From Rhodothermaceae bacterium (lineage in GTDB: Bacteria > Bacteroidota > Rhodothermia > Balneolales > Cyclonatronaceae), in contig JAIVHB010000170.1 in the NCBI GenBank assembly GCA_020201275.1, positions 997 through 36,524 on the forward strand: DNA of 35,528 nucleotides. The letters are read 5' to 3'. This document shows, piece after piece, positions 21,149 through 35,417 of the stretch; the first letter of the stretch is position 1; each line of letters opens with the position of its first letter. The notes under the pieces are model-generated. The model searched no databases, was not told where the DNA came from, and saw only the letters and a program-made list of their open reading frames with translations. Both the position numbers and the translations under genes were made by a program.

Positions 21149-21223
21149 TTTGTCTGTTTTATATGTTGAAAAGTGTGTTAATAACCGGCCTGCAAGTTGT
21201 GGGGTACCTCATAATTTAAAATG

Positions 21224-21231
21224 CAAATTTA
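21224..21231 (-). promoter_or_regulatory. Possible -7 box for the dtd / metalloenzyme transcript
   Basis: On the minus strand this reads TAAATTTG, an exact TAnnTTTG match, 76 bp upstream of the dtd ATG. No TTG at the ideal distance is present (the nearest is 11 nt away), so this is a partial promoter match. Confidence 0.35.
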
Positions 21232-21389
21232 CTTATGCAGATCAACGAACACCCGGAACCGGCAGGCCAACAAGTTATCATCAGTACTGCCGGATGTGGG
21301 TTAAAAAAAAGGAAATTCTGTGCGGAATATATGCAGATGTTATAAACGTGATTTTAAAACGGGTTAAGTTCAGCTTTTATTCAAGCTCG

Positions 21390-21584
21390 ATATCCACATT
21401 TTTATAAACAATTCCACATTTTAGAAAGAACCTCTATTAATAAACCTGTTTATCCACATATACACACGGTATACTATAATTACTAAACCTATTTTTAAAA
21501 TATATACTTATTGAAAACCCCTGTGGAAAAACTCTTTTTATTGCATTCCATAATTTCAAATCACTTTGGTTAACTTGTGGCAAA
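21390..21584. other. Candidate chromosomal replication origin (DnaA-box cluster)
   Basis: In an AT-rich gene-free stretch there are five DnaA-box-like sites in under 200 bp: ATATCCACA (21390-21398), AATTCCACA (21410-21418), a perfect TTATCCACA (21450-21458), and on the minus strand TTTTCCACA (21530-21522) and TTTGCCACA (21584-21576). The first three point one way and the last two the other. Between them lies a very AT-rich segment (about 21466-21515), a plausible unwinding element, and the sequence after the perfect box (TACTATAATTACTAAA) resembles a DnaA-trio. The site sits between leftward dtd and rightward purM. dnaA is not in the window, which is not unusual for oriC in this group. Inference from motifs only. 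Confidence 0.6.
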
Positions 21585-21593
21585 GGAGTTCAT

Positions 21594-22622
21594 ATGAGCA
21601 AAAAGGAATTTACATACAAAGACGCCGGGGTTGATATACAGGCCGGAGAAAAGCTGGTCGAATCGATAAAGGATATGGTGAAGCAGACCCATACTCCAGG
21701 AGTACTAACAAATATTGGTGGATTCGGGGGATTGTTCAGGCCCGATTTTACAGGATACAGGGATCCGGTACTGGTAAGCAGTGTTGATGGTGTTGGAACA
21801 AAGTTGAAAGTGGCCTTCATGGCCGGAAAATACGATACCGTTGGTCAGGATCTTGTGAACCATTGTGTGAACGATATTGCGGTATGCGGCGCTGAGCCAC
21901 TATTCTTTCTGGATTACTTTTCCACAGGTAAACTTGAACAGAATGTGGCTTTTGATGTGATCAAGGGATTTACCATTGCCTGCCGCGAAAATGATTGCGC
22001 CCTTATTGGCGGAGAAACAGCTGAAATGCCCGATCTGTACAAAGCAGGCGAATTTGACCTGGCCGGAACGGTTGTAGGAGTGGTTGACCGGTCCGAAATC
22101 ATAGACGGAAGGGATGTGGGCGAAGGCGATATACTGGTAGGCTTCCGCAGCTCCGGCTTGCATACAAACGGATATTCTTTGGCCAGAAAGGTACTGTTTA
22201 GCAACTACAAGGTAGATGAATTTGTGGATGACCTCGGTAAAACAGTCGGTGAGGCACTTCTTGCGGTGCACCGGTCCTACCTGGGCATCATACGAAAGCT
22301 GAAATCACTCGACGGAATCAAGGCACTTTCACACATAACCGGCGGAGGAATCATCGGTAACACCAAACGCGTGACCCCGGATGGCTTTGAACTGGATATA
22401 GACTGGGGCAGCTGGGACCGTCCCGCCATTTTTGATCTGATTAAGAAAACGGGAAATGTTCCGGAAGAGGATATGAGAAAGACATTTAACCTTGGTATCG
22501 GGCTGATTGCCATAACAGACCAGCATCGGGTGCACGACATCAGGGAGTTGCTTGCGGAAGAAAATGAGATGGTTTACGAAATCGGACGGGTGGTAAGAAA
22601 GCAGGAAAATGAAAAAGGTTAA
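21594..22622 (+). CDS. purM: Phosphoribosylformylglycinamidine cyclo-ligase (AIR synthetase)
   Basis: 342 residues, against 345 in E. coli. It makes aminoimidazole ribotide from FGAM with ATP, the fifth step of purine synthesis, as a cytoplasmic dimer. Signatures are TYKDAGVDIQAGEKLVESIK at the N-terminus, SVDGVGTKLKVAF near 63-75, NDIAVCGAEPLFFLDYF near 93-109, LIGGETAEMPDLYKAGEFDL near 137-156, FRSSGLHTNGYSLARKVLF near 184-202 and ITGGGIIGNTKRV near 248. A strong ribosome binding site, AAAGGAG (21582-21588), precedes the ATG. The downstream AtuA-like gene overlaps its end by 14 bp. Its upstream region is the candidate origin; other pur genes are not in the window. Confidence 0.98.
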   Translation: MSKKEFTYKDAGVDIQAGEKLVESIKDMVKQTHTPGVLTNIGGFGGLFRPDFTGYRDPVLVSSVDGVGTKLKVAFMAGKYDTVGQDLVNHCVNDIAVCGAEPLFFLDYFSTGKLEQNVAFDVIKGFTIACRENDCALIGGETAEMPDLYKAGEFDLAGTVVGVVDRSEIIDGRDVGEGDILVGFRSSGLHTNGYSLARKVLFSNYKVDEFVDDLGKTVGEALLAVHRSYLGIIRKLKSLDGIKALSHITGGGIIGNTKRVTPDGFELDIDWGSWDRPAIFDLIKKTGNVPEEDMRKTFNLGIGLIAITDQHRVHDIRELLAEENEMVYEIGRVVRKQENEKG

Positions 22623-33524: not shown

Positions 33525-35417
33525 ATGACCTACCTCTCTGTTGAAAATCTTTCGAAGCACTACGGCATGAAGGTGCTGTTCGACGGTCTAACATTCGGCA
33601 TCTCCAAAGGCAACAAAATGGCCCTGATTGCCCGTAACGGCACAGGCAAATCGAGCCTGCTGCATATTCTGGCCGGATTTGAAAAACCGGACGACGGGCA
33701 GGTCATGGTCCGGAACGGTATCCGGATCGGCTACCTTGAGCAGGAGCCCCGGCTGGATGAGGCCCTCACTATCAGCGAATTTATCTCGAGCGGGCACTCC
33801 GACCTGGCCCGGATCGTGCTACAATACGAAAAAGCGGTTGACGACCAGGCCGAGGCCTACAACGAGGAGACCCATACCGCATTCGAAAAAGCATCCGCGG
33901 CGATGGAGGCGGCAAATGCGTGGGATTATGAGCAGCGCATGGTGCAGATTCTCGGCAAACTCGACATCCACAACCTGGATCAGCCGATAGCTTCCCTCTC
34001 GGGGGGCGAGCGCAAGCGCGTGGCCCTGGCCTTCGTGCTGCTCGACAGCCCCGACCTGCTGCTGCTCGATGAGCCTACCAACCACCTGGATGTGGAGATG
34101 ATTGAATGGCTGGAATCGTACCTGATAAAAAATAACCTGACCCTGCTCATGGTCACTCACGACCGGTACTTTCTGGACCGCGTCTGCAACCACATCCTTG
34201 AGATCGAGGGTGGCAAGCTCTATCATCACAAGGGGAATTACAGCTACTTCCTGCAGAAACGGGCTGAGCGCGAAGAAGTGATGAAGACCGAAAAGGCCAA
34301 GGCGGGTCAGCTGTTCAAAAAGGAGCTGGAGTGGATGCGCCGCGCCCCGAAAGCCCGAACAACAAAATCGAAATCGCGCATCGGAGCCTTTTATGATACG
34401 AAGGAAAAGGCCGAAGCACGATCCGGCGGACCGGAGCTGCGCCTCGAAACAACCATGACACGCATGGGCAGCCAGATACTTGAACTGAAAAATGTTTCGA
34501 AACGGTTCGGCGACCTCACGATCATGGACAAATTCGAATACTCGTTCAGCCGGGGCGAGCGGATCGGCATTATCGGTAAAAACGGGGTTGGGAAAACGAC
34601 ATTTCTGAATGTAATAACCGGCAGGGAGCCCTCCGACTCGGGGGAAATTCGCAAGGGATCGACTATCGTATACGGATATTACAGCCAGCAGGGTATAAAA
34701 ATTGATGAAAGCCAGCGGGCGATCGATGTGCTGAAAGAGGTTGCCGAAGTGATTGAACTGGCCAACGGCAACCGCATCTCCGCGTCGCAGTTTCTGGAGC
34801 ATTTCATGTTCACATCCGAGATGCAGTACACACCGGTTGCCAAACTGAGCGGGGGCGAAAAACGCCGGCTTGCACTGATGATGGTGCTGATCCAGAACCC
34901 CAATTTCCTCATCCTCGATGAACCCACCAACGACCTCGACCTGATCACCCTCAACATCCTCGAGGAGTTCCTGCTGGATTTCGGCGGATGCCTGATTGTG
35001 GTTTCCCACGACAGGTTTTTTATGGACAAACTCGTTCAGCACTATTTTGTTTTTGAGGGCGACGGAGTGATCCGCGATTTCAATGGCAACTGGCAGGAAT
35101 ACCGCGAAATGATGGCCGACGAGGAATCGGAGCGTAAAAAAGAGGGGAAATCAACCAAAAAGACGGAGGTGGCGGTACCCGTGCCAACGGAATCCAAAAC
35201 CGGGGATGTACTCAGCTATGCCGAACGGAAGGAGTATTCAAATCTGGAAAAGGAGATTGCCAGCCTCGGGGAGGAGCAGAAGTCGCTTGAGACAACTATA
35301 GGCAGCGGCAAGCTCGGCCTGAAGGAGCTCGAGGATAAATCAAAACGCTACGGGGAAATACTCGCGGAGATCGATGAGAAAACCGCACGTTGGGTGGAGC
35401 TGGCTGATCGGGCTTGA
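33525..35417 (+). CDS. ABC-F family ATPase (Uup-type)
   Basis: 630 residues with two ABC domains and no membrane segments. NBD1: Walker A ARNGTGKSS (36-44, where the usual first Gly is Ala36), signature LSGGE (157-161), Walker B DEPTNHLD (181-188). A linker of ~80 residues (245-315) includes the basic RRAPKARTTKSKSR stretch. NBD2: Walker A GKNGVGKTT (350-358), LSGGE (440-444), DEPTNDLD (464-471). The C-terminal ~55 residues (575-630) form a charged coiled coil, as in Uup. ABC-F proteins act on the ribosome or, for Uup, in genome stability and translation; resistance function is not implied. The start ATG 33525 gives the usual MTYLSVENLSKHYG opening. A terminator follows. Confidence 0.95.
   Translation: MTYLSVENLSKHYGMKVLFDGLTFGISKGNKMALIARNGTGKSSLLHILAGFEKPDDGQVMVRNGIRIGYLEQEPRLDEALTISEFISSGHSDLARIVLQYEKAVDDQAEAYNEETHTAFEKASAAMEAANAWDYEQRMVQILGKLDIHNLDQPIASLSGGERKRVALAFVLLDSPDLLLLDEPTNHLDVEMIEWLESYLIKNNLTLLMVTHDRYFLDRVCNHILEIEGGKLYHHKGNYSYFLQKRAEREEVMKTEKAKAGQLFKKELEWMRRAPKARTTKSKSRIGAFYDTKEKAEARSGGPELRLETTMTRMGSQILELKNVSKRFGDLTIMDKFEYSFSRGERIGIIGKNGVGKTTFLNVITGREPSDSGEIRKGSTIVYGYYSQQGIKIDESQRAIDVLKEVAEVIELANGNRISASQFLEHFMFTSEMQYTPVAKLSGGEKRRLALMMVLIQNPNFLILDEPTNDLDLITLNILEEFLLDFGGCLIVVSHDRFFMDKLVQHYFVFEGDGVIRDFNGNWQEYREMMADEESERKKEGKSTKKTEVAVPVPTESKTGDVLSYAERKEYSNLEKEIASLGEEQKSLETTIGSGKLGLKELEDKSKRYGEILAEIDEKTARWVELADRA

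Follow-up and report, generated by a model that had tools for sequence, protein, structure and literature searches.

Does the stretch between dtd and purM serve as the origin of chromosome replication in a Balneolales bacterium, at a site removed from dnaA? The window analysed here is the whole stretch of DNA of 35,528 bp, positions 997-36524 of contig C121 in a genome of 3.42 Mb assembled in 253 contigs (G000); the nearest named relative is the Balneolaceae metagenome bin DLM2.Bin41, whose PurM is 91% identical to that of the window, and on this basis the order is taken as Balneolales. The start of dtd (21148, minus strand) is separated from purM (21594) by 445 bp with no evident gene. A preliminary description, made from the letters of the window, proposed this gap as a candidate oriC, and we now put the probability that it is the chromosomal origin at about 0.93, as judged from sequence comparison. 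The evidence from the window taken by itself is modest; it is comparison with relatives that settles the call: box clusters conserved among them, a core that has a unique match in the genome, and minima of GC skew in two complete relatives all back the proposal. The element is well supported as an ordinary bacterial origin, one predicted to fire in the cell from a conserved address far from dnaA.

DnaA boxes and core of the window

The gap has a G+C content of 33%, versus 49% in purM, and its AT content reaches 70-78% per 50 bp across 21391-21540, in keeping with the AT-rich, gene-free region first described. The one perfect and four near DnaA boxes reported there are all located (Table 1), provided that two mismatches still count as near. 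They fall into the two opposing groups that had been noted, with plus-strand boxes on the left side of the AT-rich core and the reversed box on the right. With three boxes within one mismatch over 141 bp, this is the densest cluster of the 35.5 kb scanned. Block-shuffled copies of the window never contained more than two boxes per 150 bp (60 trials), and shuffles of the intergenic sequence contained 0.2 boxes on average and 1 at most (n = 100), versus the 3 observed within one mismatch; the density is, as claimed, above chance. Three such boxes are fewer than most relatives have.

Table 1. Features of the dtd-purM region, in window coordinates
Feature	Position	Strand	Basis or remark
oriC region (probable), dtd start-purM gap	21149..21593	none	Arrangement in 46 of 59 relatives; two complete relatives have their skew minimum at the homologous gap or close by
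oriC core: tandem DnaA boxes, trio-like run, AT-rich stretch, reversed box	21450..21530	+	Model R1 match and aligned cores
DnaA box ATATCCACA, 1 mismatch	21390..21398	+	Kept in G001
Weak DnaA box TTATAAACA, 2 mismatches	21402..21410	+	Present in G001 sequence too
DnaA box TTATCCACA, perfect	21450..21458	+	Sequence match
Second tandem DnaA box ATATACACA, overlapping the first, 2 mismatches	21458..21466	+	Reads ATATCCACA in sister genome G001
DnaA-trio-like run ATA CTA TAA TTA CTA AAC CTA	21471..21491	+	Register broken twice
AT-rich presumed unwinding element	21471..21515	none	Composition; function inferred
Reversed DnaA box TTTTCCACA, 1 mismatch, closing the core	21522..21530	-	GTGGA invariant in aligned cores
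purM (AIR synthase), neighbour on the right	21594..22622	+	Pfam AIRS, AIRS_C
dtd remnant: start region and 66 C-terminal codons	20944..21148	-	About 236 bp missing versus G001

In the relatives a typical core has TTATCCACA and, 8 bp further along, a second box; a few bases separate these from CTA repeats, which are followed by an AT-rich stretch and by TGTGGAAAA, a DnaA box on the opposite strand. The core of the window reads TTATCCACATATACACACGGTATACTATAATTACTAAACC...CCCCTGTGGAAAA. Aligning the cores reveals which of the box, trio and AT parts are nearly invariant. In 28 aligned cores from three families of the order (f3-f5; the family of the window is f1), the TCCACA of the second box, the C and the A of the first CTA, and GTGGA do not vary at all. 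A DnaA-trio-like run had been reported close to the perfect box, and in the window it does start after a spacer of 12 bp, within the limit set by a published trio search rule (a spacer no longer than 16 bp and three trios or more; PMC8287927). The register of the run is broken: the trios read ATA CTA, break, TTA CTA, break, CTA, so that a run of three is interrupted. Uninterrupted CTACTACTA runs are found in several relatives (e.g. G013 and G038).

The other reservation within the window concerns skew. A switch between metH and purM had been suggested by eye and is not seen; cumulative GC skew across the window has no minimum at dtd-purM, its minimum being at 34197, and is flat locally.

As for the left neighbour, dtd sequence is there as described, reduced to a remnant with 66 codons of the C-terminus. 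Compared with G001, the gap in dtd joins ATGAGGGCAG to GGCGATACC out of frame. A search of the same genome for another copy of dtd found none, and the loss may be either a real deletion or an assembly artefact.

Conservation of the element across Balneolales

We looked for PurM and Dtd in the genome of the window and in 59 relatives from the order. The two genes are divergent neighbours on a single contig in 46 of the 59, in most cases with 0.4-1.3 kb between them (2.8 kb in G018). All 46 of these gaps, and that of the window, contain from 3 to 12 boxes within one mismatch, versus 0.1-1.1 expected from shuffles, and all contain a comparable core. The core starts 285-312 bp from the start of dtd in most genomes, at about 400 bp in G018 and about 350 bp in G052; those of G006 and G010 are at the usual place.

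Since DnaA boxes can regulate promoters, and the gap is common to two divergent genes, the cluster might instead be a DnaA-controlled promoter of purM or dtd, or a site that titrates DnaA, with the origin elsewhere. Several genomes of the order bear on this. In G030 a DinB-like gene stands between the core and purM. G058 and G004 have dtd and purM on separate contigs, with the box cluster adjoining dtd in the first and purM in the second. The displaced purM of G030, together with clusters that follow a single neighbour, argues against the element being simply the promoter of purM. Regulation or titration would also have to accommodate a cluster that persists where one or other neighbour is missing or has been displaced, an AT-rich core with trio-like repeats laid out as in an origin, and skew minima that, in two complete relatives, fall within the homologous gap or close to it (see below); we regard it as very unlikely. 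The usual spacing of 285-312 bp from the start codon of dtd may have been held across families despite an insertion on the purM side or a neighbour moving away. Loci of dtd fetched from other orders and classes had no box cluster; therefore the link to dtd looks order-specific.

The preliminary description had warned that similar box clusters at many intergenic sites would count against an origin; neither these nor a skew minimum elsewhere, the other adverse result it named, turned up. We searched with a sequence-only model (R1), constructed from the 28 cores of families f3-f5 and including no member of f1, in a procedure that scores only the best first-look candidates. R1 yields a single strong match in the genome of the window, at contig positions 22443-22526 (window 21447-21530; 41.8 bits, E 3.8e-10), and the next independent site, C238:52146, scores 14.2 bits (E 0.15). 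The five f1 genomes searched have one strong match apiece, and in all of them the best match is the core beside purM. R1 matches most sampled genomes of Balneolales, and finds a match at E 0.01 or better in 124 of 146 genomes of the class, mostly one per genome.

Skew minima and the distance to dnaA

Cumulative GC skew had been proposed as a check on this site, with a minimum elsewhere as a result that would speak against it. The 253 contigs preclude a skew curve for the genome of the window, and skew was instead followed in relatives, by partial scans plus samples rather than whole-genome curves. G007 (family f1) is a single contig of 4.29 Mb, and a scan of a gap-free stretch of 454 kb places the minimum at 267,792; the core, at 270,011-270,102, lies 2.2 kb away. 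Coarse samples from the same genome are mostly positive to 2.15 Mb and mostly negative from 2.4 Mb, with exceptions; the opposite turn, between these two points, is about half a genome away. In G030 (family f4, one contig of 3.49 Mb), a scan of 180 kb places the minimum at 955,882, inside the dtd-purM gap (955,348-956,306); the core (955,623-955,715) is about 0.2 kb away. In both complete relatives, then, the minimum is at or near the homologous gap. G181, an f4 genome outside the training set of R1, becomes sharply positive in skew from its core at 320 kb, and its minimum in a 200-kb scan is 37 kb to the left of the core, on a broad plateau.

The gene dnaA, as had been pointed out, is not near the site. 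It is on contig C40 in the genome of the window, and its distance to the core is about 270 kb in G007 and about 345 kb in G030, the two complete relatives in which it was measured. In many bacteria oriC lies at dnaA, and the region upstream of dnaA has boxes of its own. On C40 there are three, perfect or near-perfect and all on one strand, at 575, 728 and 827 (C40:575-835), and their spacing of about 98 and 153-166 bp is common to G000, G007, G017, G030 and G036, across families. No other comparable group of perfect boxes was seen in the genome of the window. An origin at dnaA was nevertheless rejected on the skew of the two complete relatives: in G007 dnaA lies near 1.5 kb, at the start of the contig, where there is no minimum, and skew falls for about 268 kb further, and in G030 dnaA, at 1.301 Mb, comes 345 kb after the minimum. 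R1 has no match at the array. The simplest reading of these boxes would be autoregulation of dnaA, which would account for the array, and we find an origin upstream of dnaA scarcely credible.

Conservation of both arrays might also be taken to mean a bipartite origin, made of the dtd-purM core plus the distant array at dnaA. The parts would be about 270-345 kb apart in the complete relatives, and we know of no bipartite origin whose parts are not far closer than that. Such an arrangement strains belief most of all, even with the precedent of Helicobacter pylori, whose origin is described as having two parts (PMC8235120).

The assembly around dnaA has peculiarities of its own. On C40 (L218:924-2462) dnaA runs into folB, such that the N-terminal and ATPase parts of DnaA are fused to most of FolB, and the fused gene is left without the DNA-binding domain; in G001, dnaA and folB are intact and separate. 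The fusion is probably an assembly artefact. The sequence upstream of dnaA is present in near-identical copies, in opposite orientation, on two contigs (L219:1-400 on C1 and L218:500-830 on C40), a sign that the assembly may mix strains.

Likely mechanism, known systems and other orders

The dtd-purM origin likely works by ordinary unwinding through DnaA boxes and DnaA trios, despite the broken trio run of the window. DnaA would occupy the tandem boxes at 21450-21466, aided by the box at 21390, and would extend along a single strand of the AT-rich region with its trio-like run (21471-21515), which would thereby melt. At 21522 the reversed box would close the element and may hold a second group of DnaA molecules; helicase loading and two-way replication would then follow. 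We infer DnaA binding, melting and firing at the gap from this layout.

The core resembles the basal unwinding system of the Bacillus subtilis type (PMC6669920, PMC8287927) in its tandem boxes, of which the upstream one is the better match, in a spacer within the range of 10-13 bp (12 here), and in CTA-type repeats in an AT-rich stretch. It differs from that system by the addition of a conserved reversed box and by the remoteness of dnaA, and in the window the register of the trios breaks after two units. Origins linked to dnaA, as in B. subtilis and many others, have the same boxes and the same presumed initiator, but the gene context here is dtd and purM, with dnaA about 270 or 345 kb off. 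Computed origins of the Ori-Finder/DoriC type (PMC10225481) depend on the same criteria as those applied here (skew minimum, box cluster and trios), with dnaA as the default indicator gene. Looking for oriC at dnaA would lead to a place roughly 270-345 kb off.

A literature search, which covered papers, found none that links oriC with purM or dtd. The titles and abstracts it returned held no description of a Balneola origin, and neither oriC nor dnaA occurs in the main text of a paper on soda-lake Balneolaeota (PMC6243061). It would appear that the oriC address across Balneolales is undescribed in the papers searched, DoriC aside. A conserved address is usable across an order rich in metagenome-only members, and would aid coverage-based estimates of growth rate, the numbering of chromosomes once assembled, and the design of replicating plasmids for cultured Balneolales.

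Many genomes from other orders also have R1 matches, several of which lie next to pgi, moeA, a gene for a universal stress protein, comEC or nusB (loci L258-L277; Pfam was run on two, and neighbours were otherwise recognised by sequence resemblance). Extension of the origin call to the sister order, most of whose genomes R1 matches, was dropped, as the one skew test there failed: G087, a complete genome, has no skew minimum within 100 kb of its R1 match. It is conceivable, if short of probable, that the origin has stayed fixed beside dtd, far from dnaA, in Balneolales and that a related module, with the sister-order sites as candidates, has changed its gene neighbourhood between orders.
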